In this document: piece after piece, positions 5,390-21,920 of the stretch
How positions within the stretch are numbered: the stretch's first letter is position 1
Layout of the letters: every line of letters begins with the position of its first letter
Virus record (IMG/VR): IMGVR_UViG_3300050014_000044
Span: 1-21,920 of that record
Reading direction: 5' to 3' (one strand)
DNA length: 21,920 bases
Source of the DNA: a virus
Position numbers and translations under genes: made by a program
The notes under the pieces: generated by a model
What the model saw: the letters and a program-made list of their open reading frames with translations, nothing else
The model's database searches: none
Told to the model about the DNA's origin: nothing

Positions 5390-5809
5390 GTGGCCATTAT
5401 AAAAAATACACCAATTGGTTTAATGTTTCCATTACAAAGTGGAAATGTTGGGTATTTTGACCAATCGTTTGATAGTTTGACGGCTTATAGAATGAACATT
5501 ATAAATTTAATACGAACTAAACCAGGAGAACGTAGAATGAATCCAACGTTTGGTTGTAGATTATGGAATATTGTATTTGAACCAAATGACTCATTTATTC
5601 CAGATAAAGTCGGAAAAATAATAAAAGAAGATATTTCCAGATGGATACCTGGCGTATCGGTTACTTCTGTTGATGTTAAATATTTTCAAAATGATCAAAG
5701 TATATATCTAAAAGATATTTATAAATTATATATTGTGACTACATTTGTTGTAGAATCAATAAATAAAAAAGATGTTGTAGGTATCACATTAGATATCAAT
5801 AAAATTTAA
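5390..5809 (+). CDS. 25: Baseplate wedge protein gp25 (GPW/gp25 family)
   Basis: The 139-residue length is close to T4 gp25 (132 aa), and the family signature is clear: KPGERRMNPTFGCRLW (44-59), followed by IVFEPND. The GER-R-NP-FG-L motif marks the GPW/gp25 fold shared by phage baseplates, type VI secretion TssE and related contractile systems. In T4, gp25 helps hold the wedges at the sheath end of the baseplate and nucleates sheath polymerisation. The start is GTG at 5390, immediately after the previous stop TAA (5387-5389). The next ATG (5423) would remove the first eleven residues. gp6 starts 2 bp after its stop, the gp25-gp6 adjacency known from contractile systems. Confidence 0.93.
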   Translation: MAIIKNTPIGLMFPLQSGNVGYFDQSFDSLTAYRMNIINLIRTKPGERRMNPTFGCRLWNIVFEPNDSFIPDKVGKIIKEDISRWIPGVSVTSVDVKYFQNDQSIYLKDIYKLYIVTTFVVESINKKDVVGITLDINKI

Positions 5810-5811
5810 AT

Positions 5812-7791
5812 ATGGCAAGTAATATTAAAAAAACATTTATGCCGAATAGCAAAGATATTCGGTATTTGAATAGGGATTTTTCACAATTTCGTGATGCTTT
5901 AATAAGCTTTGCCAAAACGTATTATCCAAATACATATACCGACTTTTCCCCCGCTTCTCCTGGTATGATGTTTATGGAACAAACTGCATATGTGGGAGAT
6001 GTATTAAGTTATTATACTGATTATGCCTTTAAAGAAGGTATAATGAATACTGCATCGGAAAGAAAAAACATTGTCAATTTAGCAATGTATCTTGGATATA
6101 AAGTTAAACCATCTAAAGCATCTACAGGAAATATAGATATAATGCAATTATGTCCTGCGATTGCAGATGGAGTTGGAAATTATATCCCAGATCCTAGTTA
6201 CATGCTTACTATTAAAGAAAATAGTCAATTTGCTAATAACGCTGGATCATATTATATCTTAAATTCTACAGTTGATTTCTCAATTAATTCATCATTTTCT
6301 CCAAGAACCGAAACGGTTTATGCAAGAAATCCCGATGGTACACCAACATTCTTTTTATTAACAAAACAAGGAATAATTAGCGCAGGACAAATACTTATAA
6401 AAACTGTTTCTGTTGGAAATCCATCTTCATTTTTTAAAATTACTTTAGATGAACCAAATGTTTTGGGGGTTTTGGATATAGTCGATTCCGATAATAATAA
6501 ATGGTATGAATCAGATTATTTGGCACAAGAACTTGTTCCTATAGCTATACCAAATAATGTCAATTATGAGGGGTCTCTTTCACAATATAAAGACTCGGTG
6601 CCATATATTATGCAGTTTTTAAAAACTTCTAGAAGATTTATTACTACGGTAGATGAAGTTAATTTTACTTCTATCCAATTTGGAGCAGGCACAAATGGGA
6701 TTGATGATGAAATTGTAACATTTGATTCCAATTTAATAGGTATTGGATTATCAAATGCTTCCAAAGTTAATATTCCGTTAGATCCTTCAAATTTTTTAAA
6801 GAATGAAAATTATGGTATTGCACCTCAAAACACAACTCTTACTATAAGATATTTAGCAGGTGGAGGATTAATATCAAACTGTCAATCAAATGAAATTAGA
6901 ACTATCGTATCTGTAGATTTCGATAATCCATCGGAAGGTCTATTACCTGAACAAATAGATTTATTAAATGTAGTAAAAAATTCATTAGCGGTTAACAATT
7001 CGTCCCCATGTGTTGGAGGTAAAGATTCCGAAACTGATGATGAAATTAAAATGAATGCAGTGGCTAATTTTGCTGCACAAAATAGAACAGTAACTCAAAA
7101 TGATTATTTAGTTAGAATATATTCATTACCTTCACAATATGGATCCGTCGCTAAAGCACAAGTAATTTCAGATTCTAATTTAAACATTGGAATAAATAAA
7201 GTTTTGGTAGGTGTAATTGATCAAAACAATGTTGGAACAGTAATAAATAATAATGTTAATAATCATTTTAGAAATATTGCATATGATGCAACAAACCCAT
7301 TTTCAATAAATGTATATGTTTTATCATATGATGCTAAGAAAAAATTAGTTCAACCAAACCAAGCTTTAATAACTAACTTAATTACCCATCTTAAAAAAAC
7401 TCGTATGATTACAGATGGAGTTAATATTATAGATGGATATATTATTAATATTGGAGTGAATTTTTCAATTATTGTATATAAAGGATTTAATAAAAAAGAA
7501 GTATTGTTAAATTGTATTCAATCTGTTCAAAACTTTTTTAATATAGATAATTGGAATTTTTCTCAACCAATAAATATAAGTCAATTAAATTTGGAAATTG
7601 CAAAAGTAGATGGGGTGCAATCAGTTGTAAACATAGATATTTATAATAAAACAACTTTGGATGGTGATTATTCATCAATTCAATACGACATTGCGTCAGC
7701 AACAAAAAATGGCATCATATATCCATCAATAGATCCTTCAATTTTTGAAGTAAAATTTCCAGATGGTGATATACGTGGAAACGTTTTGTGA
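5812..7791 (+). CDS. 6: Baseplate wedge protein gp6 (baseplate J-like)
   Basis: At 659 residues it matches T4 gp6 (660 aa). The N-terminal motif is typical of T4-like gp6: RYLNRDFSQFRDALISFAKT, then YPNTYTDFSPASPGMMFME and TAYVGDVLSYYTD (about residues 17-70). The middle contains the J-like repertoire (GGKDSETDDEIKMNAV, QNDYLVRIYSLP, about 400-440). gp6 dimers form the ring that holds the baseplate together, and J homologues do the same in simpler phages. The gene follows gp25 and its stop TGA overlaps the GTG of the acetyltransferase gene. No truncation or missing part is evident. Confidence 0.93.
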   Translation: MASNIKKTFMPNSKDIRYLNRDFSQFRDALISFAKTYYPNTYTDFSPASPGMMFMEQTAYVGDVLSYYTDYAFKEGIMNTASERKNIVNLAMYLGYKVKPSKASTGNIDIMQLCPAIADGVGNYIPDPSYMLTIKENSQFANNAGSYYILNSTVDFSINSSFSPRTETVYARNPDGTPTFFLLTKQGIISAGQILIKTVSVGNPSSFFKITLDEPNVLGVLDIVDSDNNKWYESDYLAQELVPIAIPNNVNYEGSLSQYKDSVPYIMQFLKTSRRFITTVDEVNFTSIQFGAGTNGIDDEIVTFDSNLIGIGLSNASKVNIPLDPSNFLKNENYGIAPQNTTLTIRYLAGGGLISNCQSNEIRTIVSVDFDNPSEGLLPEQIDLLNVVKNSLAVNNSSPCVGGKDSETDDEIKMNAVANFAAQNRTVTQNDYLVRIYSLPSQYGSVAKAQVISDSNLNIGINKVLVGVIDQNNVGTVINNNVNNHFRNIAYDATNPFSINVYVLSYDAKKKLVQPNQALITNLITHLKKTRMITDGVNIIDGYIINIGVNFSIIVYKGFNKKEVLLNCIQSVQNFFNIDNWNFSQPINISQLNLEIAKVDGVQSVVNIDIYNKTTLDGDYSSIQYDIASATKNGIIYPSIDPSIFEVKFPDGDIRGNVL

Positions 7792-8288
7792 TTAAATTAA
7801 TATCATTAATAAAAGAAGGTAGTGATGATGTAATTGAAAAATTCATATCATTACTTTCTAATTATGATCTTAATTATATTTCTCCAGAACAAGAAAGTGC
7901 GTTTAAATGGAATGGATCAATATATCCAACAATAACTGATAAAGATAATATAGTTAAAGTTGCATTAGATAGATCTAATATATTTGGGCACGATGGTAGA
8001 GTTTTTATAGGTAGTCATCCAATGTTAAATGGATATGTTATTCAAGCAATTGTAACAGATCCAAATCATAGAGGACAAGGAAAGGCAAGAGAAATTTTAA
8101 AGAAGATTTTATTAGCAGCAAATGAATCTGGATTAACATTAAAATTGGAACCAGTTCCTATGAAAGACTTTATTAAAAAAGGCGATAAAAAATTATCACA
8201 AACCCAATTGCAAAAATGGTATTCAAAATATGGGTTTGAAAAAGAAAAAGATGTTAATATAATGACTAGAATGCCTAAAAAAGATTAA
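7788..8288 (+). CDS. GNAT-family N-acetyltransferase embedded in baseplate operon
   Basis: Residues 87-107 (IQAIVTDPNHRGQGKAREIL...) are the GNAT motif A with the acetyl-CoA pyrophosphate loop R95-G96-Q97-G98-K99-A100. A C-terminal WYSKYGFEKEKD matches the usual motif B beta-strand/aromatic turn. The 166-residue length fits a single GNAT domain. The acceptor substrate cannot be told from sequence; it could be a protein, tRNA-like or small-molecule amine. It starts at GTG overlapping gp6's TGA (GTGA), so it is translationally coupled to a structural gene. A GGAA 7-10 bp upstream may help. N-terminal KLISLIKEG is a short helix common at starts of small phage proteins. Whether it modifies a virion or a host protein is open. 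Confidence 0.85.
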   Translation: MIKLISLIKEGSDDVIEKFISLLSNYDLNYISPEQESAFKWNGSIYPTITDKDNIVKVALDRSNIFGHDGRVFIGSHPMLNGYVIQAIVTDPNHRGQGKAREILKKILLAANESGLTLKLEPVPMKDFIKKGDKKLSQTQLQKWYSKYGFEKEKDVNIMTRMPKKD

Positions 8289-8289
8289 G

Positions 8290-8511
8290 ATGAATACTAT
8301 TCCTTTAGAAAAAAAAGAGAAAGAACCCCTTCGTGATTGGTTAAGGGGTCACGTTATTCGTGATTCGGAAGGAAATATGATTAATCACAGAATTTGGTTC
8401 AAGAATATATTTAATCCATTTTTGCGGTCTATGGGATGGGTAATAGTTACAAAAGTAAATGATGACGGCATAGTGTCGGGTTATCAAATTAAAAAATATA
8501 ACAAAAATTAA
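8290..8511 (+). CDS. Small hypothetical protein (73 aa)
   Basis: A short basic protein (NTIPLEKKEKEPLRDWLRGH...) with a Trp/Phe-rich core (RIWFKNIFNPFLRSMGWVIV) that may form a helix packing against beta strands (TKVNDDGIVSGYQIKKY). It lies 1 bp after the acetyltransferase stop and 1 bp before the next ATG, so its expression is tightly coupled on both sides. A GC-rich hairpin lies in its first 20 codons (8325-8349). No family is recognised. The tight packing and coding-like composition support a real gene. Confidence 0.65.
   Translation: MNTIPLEKKEKEPLRDWLRGHVIRDSEGNMINHRIWFKNIFNPFLRSMGWVIVTKVNDDGIVSGYQIKKYNKN
8325..8349 (+). other. GC-rich intragenic hairpin at start of 73-aa gene
   Basis: ACCCCTT (8325-8331) pairs with AAGGGGT (8343-8349) around an 11-nt loop. 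There is no T run after it. It may form in the mRNA near the start codon of this small gene, or be incidental. Confidence 0.35.
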
Positions 8512-8512
8512 T

Positions 8513-11125
8513 ATGCACCACTTTATATATCCATCTAAAGACACCTATATAACAAATCGTCCAACATTGGATGATAAGAATTTTGGGGTTGATGAAATTC
8601 TTCAAATTGGAACCGCCAATACATTAGTAAGAACATTAAGTTCTACTAAAAGTTATGTCTATACAAATTTATATTTAGATCGTCAGTCCATACCATCTTT
8701 TACAGGAACATTTACTGGTTCTTTTGGTGGGACTGTGGCAAACGGAGTTGGAACAATATCGGGCAGTGATATAATTTTAACAGCATCTTATTTTTCAGGT
8801 TCTATTGATAATATAGTTCAAGAAGGAACTACAAACATTTCTGGAAGTCTAGTTAATGGAATAATTTCGGGGTCTATTACAGCACCATATGTTATTGGAA
8901 TTTTTACTGGTCAGTTAACTGGATCAACCGCTTGTTTTACTGGAACAGCGAATGGAGTAGCAGTATTTAATGATCCTAATTGGATTACTACAGATACAAA
9001 GTATGTCGATAGGTCTTTATTATCATTTGATTTAACTGAAATTTCAAACTCTATTGTAAATGGTGATATAGTTAATCCAAAATTTATACTAAATTTAAAA
9101 GTTTGTAATGAGTTTAATCTTCCAATAACTTATAAAATATATGCATTACCAATTAGTCAAAGTTGGAATATGGGTGATGGATACTTATCTGATAATGGAT
9201 CTGATGTAGGTGTCAGTTGGAGATATAGAGATGCTAATTTAGAATCTCCTTGGTACACCACATCTTCAACAACACCAAGACCATCTATAGATTTTATTAA
9301 TAATCCATCATTAGTTTCATCATCATTTTCATATGGCGGTGGAACGTGGTACACAACTAGCTACTGTTCTCAAAGTTTCTCATATAAATCTGATGATATA
9401 TCAATGGATGTAACTCCAATTGTAAATTCTTGGATAAATGGGAATATTCCAAATGAAGGCATACTTCTTATTCAATCAGATGAACTTGCATCTACTGGTT
9501 CTGGATTTGTATTAAAATATTTTAGTCGTGATACAAACACGATTTATTCTCCATATCTGGATGTTGCTTGGTCGGATATAACATATAGAACTGGTAGTGG
9601 ATTTACTAGTAGTGTTCAAATTACAACCATTCCTCCTAGAATTTCCGCATCAATTAGTCCAGGGTCTTCATTTTATATTAACCAAGGTATAAGTGGAAGT
9701 TTTTCAGCAAGTGCGGCGATTACATTAGGTTCAAATTATATTACTGCAAATAATCAAATTTTTAATTATATTGCACCAAGCAATGTTTCTGCTAATGATA
9801 CTTGGTATGCTAATAACGGATATCACTACGATAGTTGGCAAACTGCGTGGCAATTAGATCCTTTTCATGGTGGATTTTTACCAAATACTGATATAAGAAT
9901 GATATTTGTTCCAGATTTTGGAAGTGATCCTATTTTAAAGTTTACTGGAAGTTTTACTGGATCATTCAGTGGAACAGCATCATATGTTGACGGAACTATT
10001 ATTGGAAGTAATATTGAATTTAGTGTGGATTATTTTAGTGGATCTATAGATGGTGTTTCACTCATTACGTATGGAAACATATCTGGAAATAATATTGATG
10101 GATATGTTTCTGGAAGTATGACTAGTATAACCCAAACTGGATTATATACTGGACAATTAACAAGTTCGTTAATCTACTTAAATGGAAATGGGTCTGGATA
10201 TTACTTAGATTCCACTTATTACGCATTTAGTGGATTTATAAATGGAATGGGATTGACTGGTAATATTGTTGGAGTTCCTGTATTTGGAAATGCAAGGGGA
10301 ATTATAACTATTTCACAATCTTTAGTTAATGCTCCATGTGGAAATGTATTTAGTGCATCTCTAGCCAAAGCAATTTTTATTGATGGACCATTTAGTGGAA
10401 GTTCATTCACCTCATATTATGTAGATTATTCTTTTGAAAATGCACAATTAGTTGGAACTTGGACTCCGACCGCTTTATTCGCATCCAATGTAACTATTCC
10501 TATTTCTTCTTCTGGAATAGATCCAAATGCATATGCTTATATAACTGGACCATATATAAATGGAACCGCATTGGGATCGTATTCTATTGGAGGTTATAAT
10601 AGTGCAAGTTTTGATGGGCAATTTATTAATGGAAGTTTACTTGGGGGACATTTATATCTACAACTTACGGGAAGTGTTTACACATCTAGTTATACTTATA
10701 CAAGTAGTGTAGTTATAACATCTAGTTATCTTTCACCATTAGATATACACAAACCATTTACAATAAATGTTCAAAATTTACAACCACAATATAAATCGGG
10801 TGATATTGTAAAAATAGATTTGTTTGGTCGTAAAAAATTCCCACTTAAATATTTTGGGAGATCAACACAACAAGAACAATATATGATTCCAGAAGTTTTA
10901 CCTTCTCAATCATATTATGCTATAAAAGATAATCAAACCAATGAAATGGTTATGAATTTTGATAATTATACTCAAATCTCGTGTAATTATCCAAACGGGA
11001 ACTATTTTATATTAGATACGACAGGATTACCACAAGAAAGATATTATAGAGTTATCATCAGAACTGGCGATGACACATCTACTTATACTATAGACACTGG
11101 AAAAACATTTAAAATAACAAGATAA
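8513..11125 (+). CDS. Large virion protein, DNRLRE-type domain with duplicated beta modules
   Basis: The 870-residue product begins with a DNRLRE-type domain, a beta-sandwich common in surface and cell-wall proteins: KDTYITNRP...NFGVDEILQIG (about 9-33), RSLLSFDL (167-174) and MDVTPIVNSWING (298-310), which leads into GILLIQSD. A Gly/Ser/Thr-rich module (63-153) is inserted inside this domain. The same module recurs at 477-566, and the two align without gaps, with about 41 of 90 residues identical by hand. The C-terminal ~130 residues (FTINVQNLQPQYKSGDIVKI...) look like another beta-rich domain. Repeated FTGSF and SGSI motifs suggest beta-strand-rich fibre parts. The position between gp6 and the gp7-like gene implies a baseplate or fibre component. 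Enzyme activity is not suggested. Confidence 0.75.
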   Translation: MHHFIYPSKDTYITNRPTLDDKNFGVDEILQIGTANTLVRTLSSTKSYVYTNLYLDRQSIPSFTGTFTGSFGGTVANGVGTISGSDIILTASYFSGSIDNIVQEGTTNISGSLVNGIISGSITAPYVIGIFTGQLTGSTACFTGTANGVAVFNDPNWITTDTKYVDRSLLSFDLTEISNSIVNGDIVNPKFILNLKVCNEFNLPITYKIYALPISQSWNMGDGYLSDNGSDVGVSWRYRDANLESPWYTTSSTTPRPSIDFINNPSLVSSSFSYGGGTWYTTSYCSQSFSYKSDDISMDVTPIVNSWINGNIPNEGILLIQSDELASTGSGFVLKYFSRDTNTIYSPYLDVAWSDITYRTGSGFTSSVQITTIPPRISASISPGSSFYINQGISGSFSASAAITLGSNYITANNQIFNYIAPSNVSANDTWYANNGYHYDSWQTAWQLDPFHGGFLPNTDIRMIFVPDFGSDPILKFTGSFTGSFSGTASYVDGTIIGSNIEFSVDYFSGSIDGVSLITYGNISGNNIDGYVSGSMTSITQTGLYTGQLTSSLIYLNGNGSGYYLDSTYYAFSGFINGMGLTGNIVGVPVFGNARGIITISQSLVNAPCGNVFSASLAKAIFIDGPFSGSSFTSYYVDYSFENAQLVGTWTPTALFASNVTIPISSSGIDPNAYAYITGPYINGTALGSYSIGGYNSASFDGQFINGSLLGGHLYLQLTGSVYTSSYTYTSSVVITSSYLSPLDIHKPFTINVQNLQPQYKSGDIVKIDLFGRKKFPLKYFGRSTQQEQYMIPEVLPSQSYYAIKDNQTNEMVMNFDNYTQISCNYPNGNYFILDTTGLPQERYYRVIIRTGDDTSTYTIDTGKTFKITR
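8699..8971 (+). repeat. Beta module copy A (inserted in DNRLRE domain)
   Basis: Codes for residues 63-153, starting FTGTFTGSFGGT and containing YFSGSID and GQLTGS. It shares about 41 of 90 residues with copy B at 9941-10210 by hand alignment, without gaps. It separates the N-terminal DNRLRE strand from the RSLLSFDL strand, so it looks like a domain insertion. Confidence 0.75.
9941..10210 (+). repeat. Beta module copy B
   Basis: Codes for residues 477-566, starting FTGSFTGSFSGT and containing YFSGSID, NISG and GQLTSS at the same positions as copy A. The match lies far downstream of copy A and outside the DNRLRE domain, so the module was probably duplicated or acquired twice. Confidence 0.75.
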
Positions 11126-11126
11126 T

Positions 11127-11588
11127 ATGGCTGATTTTTCGCAAGATATTCAGAATTTTAAAAAATATGGAACCTACACATATAAATTTGATGTAGTGGG
11201 GAATCTTATTTTTAACAGTTCTTCTGTGGATTTTTCACAAGTATATATTGCGTTTCCATTATCTAATCTTGTATATAATGATTCAAAATTAAACTCATTT
11301 TTTAATCCAGAATTTACCGAATTCATTCCAAACTCGGGGTCTGTTGATACCACAATAAATGTTGACAATTTACAACAAGAATTAGATATAGTTCAACAAG
11401 AAAACACAACTTTAAAAAATCAACTGGATTATCTTATTTCACAAAATGAAAGCAGTAGTTCTATAGCAGATTCTATGGCAACGAAACAAGTAATATTAGA
11501 ACTTCGTAAAGCAATCGGGCAAGGAAGAGTTGATACAGATTTTTCTTTAACATTTCCTTACACCGCAATAAAGAAACCAACATCATAA
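11127..11588 (+). CDS. Hypothetical coiled-coil virion protein (153 aa)
   Basis: The N-terminal half (about 1-70) has mixed beta strands with many aromatic residues (YTYKFDVVGNLIF, QVYIAFPLSNLVY). Residues about 80-105 (NLQQELDIVQQENTTLKNQL) form a heptad-like coiled coil, consistent with a trimer or a short connector. The C-terminus is a short helix and a flexible tail. Its stop precedes the next ATG by only 1 bp (TAATATG), and it lies between two giant structural genes, so a tail or baseplate role is probable. I do not recognise its family and no enzymatic motif is visible. Confidence 0.7.
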   Translation: MADFSQDIQNFKKYGTYTYKFDVVGNLIFNSSSVDFSQVYIAFPLSNLVYNDSKLNSFFNPEFTEFIPNSGSVDTTINVDNLQQELDIVQQENTTLKNQLDYLISQNESSSSIADSMATKQVILELRKAIGQGRVDTDFSLTFPYTAIKKPTS

Positions 11589-19183: not shown

Positions 19184-20476
19184 ATGAGTAATAAAAAAAA
19201 TGGCATAAGCCAAACCGTAGAGGGATTTTATAAACTTTCAGTTATAAACGAAGTTGGGGATGTTGTTTGGGAACAACCAAACTGGCAAAAAAACTTGGTT
19301 CTTAATAATGGAATGGATATGATTGCAAGTGTTGCATATGAAGGATGTATGTTATATGCATTTGCTGGAAATGGAACTCGCCAAAACAGTATTTTTAGTA
19401 ATGCCTCCACCATTACTCAAACAGGAACTACAATAACGCTTAATCCATTAGGATCATTACAACATTTTACACAGTCTGCTGGAGGATATATATCGGGAGT
19501 CTCAGCGGGGGATGTCATTGTATATGCAACAAGTAGTATTCAAACGAATGTTATCAGCGTATCTGATATGACATGTGTAGTGGATCAATCTCAAACAATC
19601 GGAGTTGGTGAACAGTTTACAATTTGGAAAACTTCACAATCAGGACTACAAAACCCCCTAACATCAGGGGGAGGCAGAGCAGTAGGTTCTTGGACTCAAC
19701 CATCTGGATCATATTGGTTACCTGGATATTGTGGGTCAGAATGGGTTGGAAATATATTTCAAATGACTAGAACATATGATTTTGGAGTTGAGGCATCTTT
19801 ACAAAATTATACTGAAATTGGAGTTGGAAAAACTTATACTCTTTATACTCCAGGATATTGTTTTAGTAGAATTTTACTTACTAATCCAGTTGCAATAAAT
19901 GTTGGACAACGATTAAGAGTCGCATATCAATTAAATGTATCGGTAGAACCATCTACTCCAGTTTATAGAAGTGGGGTAACTCAACCAATTATTACAAATT
20001 GGCCAGTATCTCCATCAACAAATACAAATGCAACAGAATCATTGCAATATATTGATACTGCTTTGGAAGGAATTAGTTCCAATGGAGATCCCTCATTTAA
20101 TAATAATGATGGATCAACTTTAGATCCAAGTAGTCAAGGATATGTATGTTATGCGTGGATATCCCCAGATTCTAAATCTTTAGCTCCGTTTGGTTTATCA
20201 TATGATAGGACTCCCAATAGTTCTAATGCAACTATGACTAGAGCATCATATCCAGGAAACGGATCATATTATTGTGATAAAAGCGTAACATTTGATTTAA
20301 CACAAATAAATAGAAATGATATTCGTAGTTTTGGGTTTGGATATGGTATTAATTCTGCGGGAAACAATTCACATGCATATGCATTATTATTTGACCAAAC
20401 CAAAACCAATATTCAAACATTATCATTATCTTGGAGATTCCAATGGAATAGAACATTAACCAATGGGTCTAATTAA
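19184..20476 (+). CDS. Virion structural protein (430 aa)
   Basis: The N-terminus contains VEGFYKLSVINEVGDVVWEQ followed by KNLVLNNGMDMI and MLYAFAGNGT. I have seen this opening (a 'backbone' strand, then 'L..NG.D.I') in tail proteins of large phages. The middle is Gly/Ser/Thr-rich, with a Cys pair region (WLPGYCGSEWVG, YTPGYCFSRI) and YDFGVEASLQN. The C-terminal part (DLTQINRNDIRSFGFGYGIN, then LSLSWRFQWNRTLTNGSN) is beta-rich. It lies between the repeat-bearing protein and the FG-GAP gene and so belongs to the same fibre/baseplate group. TGGAAA 9-14 bp upstream is a weak ribosome site. No catalytic residues are recognisable. Confidence 0.75.
   Translation: MSNKKNGISQTVEGFYKLSVINEVGDVVWEQPNWQKNLVLNNGMDMIASVAYEGCMLYAFAGNGTRQNSIFSNASTITQTGTTITLNPLGSLQHFTQSAGGYISGVSAGDVIVYATSSIQTNVISVSDMTCVVDQSQTIGVGEQFTIWKTSQSGLQNPLTSGGGRAVGSWTQPSGSYWLPGYCGSEWVGNIFQMTRTYDFGVEASLQNYTEIGVGKTYTLYTPGYCFSRILLTNPVAINVGQRLRVAYQLNVSVEPSTPVYRSGVTQPIITNWPVSPSTNTNATESLQYIDTALEGISSNGDPSFNNNDGSTLDPSSQGYVCYAWISPDSKSLAPFGLSYDRTPNSSNATMTRASYPGNGSYYCDKSVTFDLTQINRNDIRSFGFGYGINSAGNNSHAYALLFDQTKTNIQTLSLSWRFQWNRTLTNGSN
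19654..19671 (+). other. GC-rich intragenic hairpin in 430-aa gene
   Basis: CCCCCT (19654-19659) pairs with AGGGGG (19666-19671) around a 6-nt loop. No T run follows. Its base composition contrasts with the surrounding AT-rich gene. Confidence 0.35.
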
Positions 20477-20534: not shown

Positions 20535-21920
20535 ATGTATATTGATGTAAAACACGAAAATTCTGGATACGCAGTCGCAACTTATGGTGATTATGTAGTT
20601 GTTTCCAACCCTTCTGTAACTAAATATGATGTTTTAACGTCTAGTCTTTATAGAACTGGATCCGTAGATTATTTTAGATATAATAAATCCACTGATGAAC
20701 ACGATTATATAGGTTCTTTTTATAAACATCCAATAGATATTGATGTTTTACTTACCACAGAATCTATTAACTTAGGTGGAATGGAAACCGAAATTAATGG
20801 AACATATGCAAATGATGGAATATTAATTGACAAAGATTTATATACCGCATCAGTAGATAATGGATATGGTCTTTCATTAGACATGTATAATAAAATGTTA
20901 GTTGTTGGATCTCCATATTATACACAATATGTTCAAACATATGCTAAAACCATAGTTACAACTGGAGCATCAATAGATATATATGACTTAAATTTAACTG
21001 AGTTTACTAATGATAGTTCAAGTGCCTATGTTTATACTATAGAAGATCCCGATATTTTATTACCAACCACAATCACTGGTTCTTTTGGAACATCAGTATC
21101 TATTAACAACGAATGGATAGCGGTAGGATCGCCATTCGTAAGTTCTTCAAATGGAATGGTTTATATGTATAGAAACATTTCTACTGGAAGCAATTATAGT
21201 TGGTCATTATATCAAAAAATAAATCCAGAAAATGCTATTGTTGGGGCTGAGTTTGGATATAGTTTAAAATTAAATAAATCAACGGGATCATATAGTTCCA
21301 GTATGGTTATTGGATGTGGTAATGATGTAAGTAATGCGGCATATTATTATCAACTCATTGATAATGTATGGACCCAAACATTTATATTTAAACCAGATTA
21401 TACTATAAAACCAATGACATTTTCGGATTATATGCCACATCTTCCGACAATGAACACAACAAATGGGTTTGGTAAAGCAGTATCTATTTATGGAAACTCG
21501 GTAATAATTGGGGAATATTTGGATAGATCTTTTTATGAGTTTGATGGGTCCACTCAATATCAACAAGGATCTGTTTATATTTTTGAAAAATGTATTAACC
21601 CACCATATACGACTGTTCCAAATGCACTATTTAGTCAAGTTTTTAAATCGTATGGAACATCTCTTACATTAAAAAATAATAGAATGGGATTTTCAGTTGA
21701 TATTTTTGGAGATAATGCCGTAGCGGGAATTCCAAAAACAAATATATTTAATTTAACTTCGTGTTATGTTGGCGGAACATTGGAACAATTACATAATAGT
21801 GATATTCAATCTTTGTTAACTGGACAGACAATGTTAATACAGAAAAATACTTCTTCCTACGAGTGGGAAATTACAAATGTATATCAAAAAAAGAAAAAGT
21901 TTCTAAGTCCTTATAGAAGT
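20535..21920 (+). CDS. FG-GAP-like beta-propeller protein, 5' part (runs off window)
   Basis: ATG at 20535 opens a frame that stays open to the last codon, giving 462 residues and no stop. Six FG-GAP-like units are visible: GYAVATYGDYVVVSNP (from residue 11), GYGLSLDMYNKMLVVGSP (about 110), FGTSVSINNEWIAVGSP (about 185), FGYSLKLNKSTG (about 240), GFGKAVSIYGNSVIIGE (about 311) and MGFSVDIFGDNAVAGIP (about 384). Several are followed by strands such as GMVYMYRN and GSVYIFEK. This is the integrin-alpha type propeller pattern, usually seven blades, so the end of the fold probably lies outside the window. FG-GAP proteins often bind surfaces or ligands. It is the last gene seen, 58 bp after the 430-aa gene. 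An in-frame TGA at 20523 supports this start. Confidence 0.8.
   Translation, partial: MYIDVKHENSGYAVATYGDYVVVSNPSVTKYDVLTSSLYRTGSVDYFRYNKSTDEHDYIGSFYKHPIDIDVLLTTESINLGGMETEINGTYANDGILIDKDLYTASVDNGYGLSLDMYNKMLVVGSPYYTQYVQTYAKTIVTTGASIDIYDLNLTEFTNDSSSAYVYTIEDPDILLPTTITGSFGTSVSINNEWIAVGSPFVSSSNGMVYMYRNISTGSNYSWSLYQKINPENAIVGAEFGYSLKLNKSTGSYSSSMVIGCGNDVSNAAYYYQLIDNVWTQTFIFKPDYTIKPMTFSDYMPHLPTMNTTNGFGKAVSIYGNSVIIGEYLDRSFYEFDGSTQYQQGSVYIFEKCINPPYTTVPNALFSQVFKSYGTSLTLKNNRMGFSVDIFGDNAVAGIPKTNIFNLTSCYVGGTLEQLHNSDIQSLLTGQTMLIQKNTSSYEWEITNVYQKKKKFLSPYRS

Follow-up and report, generated by a model that had tools for sequence, protein, structure and literature searches.

Gene neighbourhood of the 870-aa protein

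The window, i.e. the whole stretch of DNA that was analysed, comprises 21,920 nt of IMG/VR virus record IMGVR_UViG_3300050014_000044. A gene on its plus strand encodes a protein of 870 aa that is built from a carbohydrate-binding-module (CBM)-like core, an Ig-like domain and two inserted blocks (Table 1). The gene belongs to a gp25/gp6 baseplate wedge cluster, both of these genes being located 5' of it in the window. In a neighbourhood table of 103 loci, some of them near-duplicates, a gp6-like gene was found upstream of the family gene at every locus and lay within 120 nt of it in 80. At one locus (L004) the end of gp6 directly abuts the start of the family gene. In the window the two are separated by an ORF for a GNAT-type acetyltransferase (PF13508, E 1.1e-6) and a 73-aa ORF (7788-8511), which together look like a small cargo insertion in the baseplate operon. 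GNAT homologues were also present at L011/L016, L087/L120 and L094. A search of PHROGs at the thresholds used assigned no family to the window protein or its short relatives. The identification of the 870-aa protein as a baseplate component of a contractile-tailed phage, here an uncultured bacterial virus, is supported.

Further ORFs were recognised in the window. Positions 2-1105, 5' of the baseplate genes, encode the final part of a tail collar fibre-like protein (phrog_523, E 1.3e-22), and a tail-fibre-like ORF (phrog_4176) lies at 19184-20476. Near the latter, an ORF that matches the FG-GAP_2 repeat profile (PF14312, E 3.6e-16) starts at 20535 and runs off the window edge at 21920.

Table 1. 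Features of the 870-aa protein gene and its baseplate context (window coordinates; residues refer to the 870-aa protein)
Feature	Position	Strand	Evidence
gp25-like baseplate wedge gene (context)	5390..5809	+	PF04965 E 1.2e-10; phrog_261 E 3.9e-18
gp6-like baseplate wedge gene (context)	5812..7791	+	phrog_219 E 1.9e-14; phrog_10646 E 1.8e-14
Whole gene, 870-aa baseplate-region protein (CBM-like core and Ig-like domain, two inserted blocks)	8513..11125	+	ORF; family alignment
N-terminal strands of CBM-like (DNRLRE/CBM96-type) domain, residues 1-36, before site 1	8513..8620	+	Short-form alignment
Site-1 block, residues 37-163 (hairpin turn, CBM-like domain)	8621..9001	+	Exceeds L047 by about 120 residues in the interval between L047 residues 36 and 40
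Module copy A, residues 63-153	8699..8971	+	41/91 identical to copy B; module HMM E 9e-36, copy A being itself among the seeds
Rest of CBM-like domain (RSLLSFDL strand onward), residues 164-355	9002..9577	+	NF033679 best stretch 240-351; 8wab match spans 1-354
Site-2 block, residues 367-750 (CBM-like/Ig-like linker)	9611..10762	+	377 residues more than L047 after its residue 235
Low-confidence linker with conserved WYANNGYHYDSW...LPNTD stretch, residues 424-466	9782..9910	+	pLDDT <50 over 424-440 and 446-466
Module copy B, residues 477-567	9941..10213	+	Ungapped match to copy A; module HMM
Rest of site-2 block, residues 568-750, common to 680-730-aa relatives	10214..10762	+	hhalign of site-2 inserts; segment identities
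C-terminal Ig/macroglobulin-like domain, residues 751-870	10763..11122	+	Short-form alignment; structural matches

The CBM-like core and its C-terminal domain

The sequence-only reading had proposed a DNRLRE-type domain whose two halves are separated by a 91-residue module. Both halves, 'FIYPSKDTYITNR...DEILQIGT' (to about residue 34) and 'RSLLSFDL' (167-174), were found where they had been placed and the split held; the spacing was revised, since the gap amounts to about 130 residues with the 91-aa repeat (63-153) as its centre. Short relatives have about 10-25 residues between the two halves. The DNRLRE profile NF033679 recognised the window protein with 33.4 bits (E 4.4e-8), just under its curated cut-off of 34, the domain being split by the insert. 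The same profile matched 24 of 26 short relatives at E <=0.01 (best E 7.3e-16), and in the short relative L047 the match was continuous over residues 10-224 with 41.4 bits, above the cut-off.

The fold of CBM96 has been tied to DNRLRE domains (PMC9971899). With the CBM96 profile (PF24517), 7 of the 26 short members were matched at E <=0.01 (best 4.8e-9), Microcystis phage Mel-JY01 scored 23.5 bits (E 5.5e-5) and the L004 protein 19.4 bits, the latter two under the gathering score of 26 bits. The window protein was not matched even at E up to 1 and by the gathering score lies outside the family. We do not file it as a member; it probably works like CBM96, with a fold common to both.

AlphaFold models were obtained for the window protein (pLDDT 84.9, pTM 0.50) and for L047 (pLDDT 78.7, pTM 0.80). 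The highest-scoring structures among the matches listed were 8wab, a chondroitin-sulfate-binding CBM, and 7vbo, the alginate-binding CBM96 structure TM6-N4. The window model matched 8wab with Z 18.6 over 169 residues, insert included, and 7vbo with Z 14.4; for L047 the values were 17.1 and 13.7, and among the matches listed the rows below these two had Z 10.2 (window) and 11.1 (L047). Both predicted models thus have the beta-sandwich fold of 7vbo/8wab, and a CBM fold is predicted with the insert present as well as without it. Within residues 1-36 the predicted strands are E2-5, E7-14 and the start of E29-43. For residues 746-870 the model gave structural matches to SKICH and macroglobulin domains with Z up to 9.5; this Ig-like domain is also found in the short forms. 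A sequence search of the PDB with the core profile returned nothing convincing. Antibody matches from single-sequence searches were weak and implausible and were discarded; other such searches gave none. None of the fold matches listed could be recognised as a solved baseplate wedge protein, although this does not show that none exists.

Two copies of a 91-residue module

Residues 63-153 and 477-567 align without gaps and share 41 of 91 residues, confirming the intragenic repeat that had been proposed. As both stretches are rich in Gly, Ser and Thr, the role of chance was assessed with full shuffles and with shuffles of 20-residue blocks. The Smith-Waterman score of copy A against copy B was 195, compared to a mean of 44 (sd 8.5, max 84, n=500) when one of the two copies was fully shuffled. 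The best ungapped 91-mer self-match in the whole protein scored 194 (starts 58/472), far above the maximum of 53 reached by block shuffles with composition kept (mean 22.7, sd 8.3, n=200). The block shuffles rule out a likeness due to chance or low complexity. An assembly artefact is unlikely, A and B co-occurring in more than 10 different contigs.

At the DNA level the copies are identical at 148 of 273 positions and at 39 of 91 third codon positions, indicating that the pair is old. From this comparison we infer an old duplication that may have run in either direction. Both copies are predicted to form a run of strands of about 11 residues joined by tight turns, copy A with pLDDT of about 85-94 in 10-residue blocks, and the alignment showed many module residues to be invariant across relatives. 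A short motif, hydrophobic-x-Gly-polar-hydrophobic (h-x-G-S/T-h), occurs 4.2 times per 100 aa in the inserts, compared to 0.34 in the cores and 0.67 in shuffled inserts.

Among the ORFs of the fetched loci, the module HMM matched the family gene alone. At E up to 1, tblastn with copy B retrieved nothing from 50,697 phage records, and a 31-nt DNA match at 11352-11382 did not correspond to a module match.

Two insertion sites in a constant core

Relatives were gathered from IMG/VR and phage records and aligned, giving 84 distinct proteins. Bare cores of 343-396 aa account for 37 of them, including the proteins of Microcystis phage Mel-JY01 and Flavobacterium phage immuto, and the other 47 are longer (525-1733 aa). 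The sequence-only reading had named related phages without the module as a means of dating it. Such relatives exist: in all 37 short forms the DEILEL-type strand is followed directly by the R-x-L-x-K-F-D strand, and the site-1 block is lacking. Of the 47 long forms, 46 carry 34-225 aa at site 1, between L047 residues 36 and 40, and 38 carry 187-1234 aa at site 2, after L047 residue 235 and between the two core domains; the exact borders of the inserts vary with the alignment program. These two core positions are therefore insertion sites. Length also swings between close relatives, as in L029 (555 aa) and L031 (630 aa).

In the L047 model site 1 is a turn between core strands E27-34 and E41-50, in line with the loop insertion that had been suggested. 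A reservation is that in the window model the strands of the module, predicted with confidence, carry on those of the core hairpin (E29-43, E46-84 ... E130-152, E156-172). Within the site-2 block, the WYANNGYHYDSW...LDP..GG.LPNTD stretch is strongly conserved in the window-like group, and residues 424-466 are perhaps a binding segment that becomes ordered only with a partner.

Some loci deviate from this arrangement. L035 (8001-10457) has a third site with about 280 aa near core residues 144-147, Ser-rich and unlike the window module. At L043 (5075-7483), L065 (8001-11048) and L125 (8001-10188) the family match is divided over two separate ORFs, which could reflect a split gene, a frameshift, a sequencing error or neighbouring gene copies.

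In a tree of the core columns, a single branch with support 100 sets the long forms apart. The short, empty-site state is likely ancestral, because the general DNRLRE profile and the solved CBMs lack such a segment. The reverse, a long ancestor from which the short forms arose by deletion, would draw on the fact that this tree came from a quick search on core columns only and was midpoint-rooted. We regard it as very improbable: the profile runs through L047 as one stretch and solved CBMs of this fold have 176-182 residues, so that the domain outside the family is without the insert, and the single well-supported branch of long forms also speaks against it.

Distribution and tandem growth of the module, and a probable exchange

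The module HMM was seeded from nine window-like proteins, whose own matches are by construction; both copies were detected in the window-like group. Seven relatives (L017, L091, L094, L095, L100, L106 and L107) carry the module at site 1 only, and L093 and, at the threshold used, L126 at site 2 only. The sites at which the module is present differ among close relatives. The long forms labelled as lacking it are those in which the window-type module HMM did not reach E 1e-4. In two of these groups the site-1 inserts may be diverged relatives of the module (hhalign E about 1e-13, E-values between Gly/Ser-rich inserts being inflated by composition). The profile comparison demonstrated no module relationship for the 525- and 555-aa groups.

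L018 carries one copy at site 1 and at least 12 tandem copies at site 2. The array keeps a single reading frame and repeats every 237 nt or so; its copies are 61-91% alike to reference copies, and a 474-nt unit is 91% alike. The 11 copies of sufficient length for tree building form one clade (98/90), indicating that the array grew within its own lineage. Tandem multiplication of site-2 content is thus shown in L018. Outside L018, copies group mostly according to whether they sit at site 1 or site 2, in a poorly resolved tree.

Conflicting relationships were found in L089. Its core groups with L100, L106 and L107 (support 100), and compared to L106 its core segments are about 77-88% identical and site 1 70%, while the end of the site-2 block is only 38% identical. 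Against the window clade the end of this block reaches 54% on average and the core 45-52%. Across 666 pairs, the strongest downward deviation from the trend involved L089, as did most of the strongest upward deviations. The simplest reading of these identities is that the site-2 block was probably exchanged between lineages; divergence and repeated loss keep a small residual chance.

The proposal of modular growth by insertion is supported and extended by empty sites in 37 relatives, filled sites in the others, the L018 array and the L089 conflict. The 870-aa protein illustrates well how a virus protein can grow by modules.

Proposed function and alternative explanations

The core would be anchored in the baseplate beside the gp6-like wedge, and the inserts would project from it and add contacts to surface glycans. 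Sites 1 and 2 hold beta-rich Gly/Ser/Thr segments of short strands with the h-x-G-S/T-h motif. In the lineage of the window an old copy event would have put related 91-aa modules at both sites. Site-2 content can be multiplied in tandem, as in L018, and is probably swapped as a cassette, as in L089. Changes in the number or sequence of the inserts would then alter how far the protein reaches, how avidly it binds or how specific it is for the glycans on the host surface. We lean, by a modest degree, towards this reading of a baseplate-held CBM-like core with projecting inserts that tune its contact with host glycans. Host contact, as the sequence-only reading had suggested, is plausible from the fold, the gene position and precedent. 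Alginate binding by CBM96, whose groove residues fall within Lys10-Arg36, needs Lys22, Lys25, Lys27, Lys31 and Arg36 among others (PMC9971899). As these residues share the N-terminal part of the domain with site 1, the site-1 insert may, by analogy, sit at the ligand groove.

The main rival is a scaffold role: as arms of beta structure, the inserts would attach to adjacent subunits of the baseplate or the tail fibres, and their number would follow partner size. CBM-type beta-sandwiches can be purely structural, and the strict conservation of the family gene next to gp6 (within 120 nt in most loci, 80/103) would also fit a scaffold part. A precedent is the Dit extension of lactococcal phage p2, which anchors the receptor-binding protein (PMC7291167). 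However, the 37 insert-free relatives keep the same gene position, and the length variation between L029 and L031 and the 12 copies of L018 fit free projection better, so we hold a scaffold role to be the less probable of the two. Nearly neutral growth, in which loops that tolerate it are extended by repeat slippage and unequal recombination and the added segments have no role of their own, would explain the short repeated motif, the tandem period of about 237 nt and the range of likeness among the copies. It is improbable given that A and B keep 41 of 91 residues while third codon positions fell to 39 of 91, that the structure is confidently predicted and that many module residues are invariant across relatives.

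Should the inserts indeed bind glycans of the host, the family would provide a ready-made series in which adsorption can be related to module number. A bolder and rather doubtful extension of the glycan-contact reading is that the core has acquired a private beta-repeat module that is copied from site to site, multiplied in tandem and passed between phage lineages, making an adsorption organ independent of the tail fibres. Its sites would be fixed, possibly at the rim of the core's own groove, and its length or avidity would be tunable; the case would concern a widespread, unnamed baseplate protein of contractile phages.

Arguments for the gain of modules in phage baseplates usually rest on a handful of phages. 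In the present family, over 80 distinct relatives with one constant core include the empty site, single and double copies, a tandem array of 12 copies or more and a cassette that was probably exchanged. Because one family keeps all these states, the steps of growth can be compared side by side. Sequenced phages carry this conserved baseplate gene under a hypothetical annotation, for which the analysis offers a provisional identification.

Comparison with known systems

The proteins of Mel-JY01 (WWT39509.1, 386 aa) and immuto (QQO92077.1, 369 aa), both annotated as hypothetical, have the same two-domain core and the same position after a gp6-like gene as the window protein, and are without the module and the site-2 block. 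The family resembles the DNRLRE (NF033679) and CBM96 (PF24517) domains and 8wab in core sequence profile and predicted fold; it differs from them in its baseplate context, its fused Ig-like domain and the large hairpin insert after about residue 36.

Evolved Dits of siphophages carry CBMs in loops (PMC7291167), and common to both cases are extra modules in the loops of a conserved tail-tip protein. Dit, however, forms a ring in the tail and combines a galectin-type domain with CBM inserts, whereas the inserts of the present family were not recognised as CBMs. Dit was absent among the fold matches listed, which does not exclude it, and no Dit family of PHROGs was matched.

In phage Vp4, the baseplate wedge protein Gp119 bears a CBM and decorates cells; its homologue without the CBM does not (PMC11406892). 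The family has in common with Gp119 and other CBM-bearing myophage baseplate proteins a carbohydrate-binding fold in a wedge-region protein, and a part that only some of the relatives have. The difference lies in what is gained: Gp119 gained its CBM, whereas the present family keeps the CBM-like core constant and gains other beta modules. CBM-bearing phage baseplate proteins are the nearest known kind, and the family of the 870-aa protein is a variant of them.
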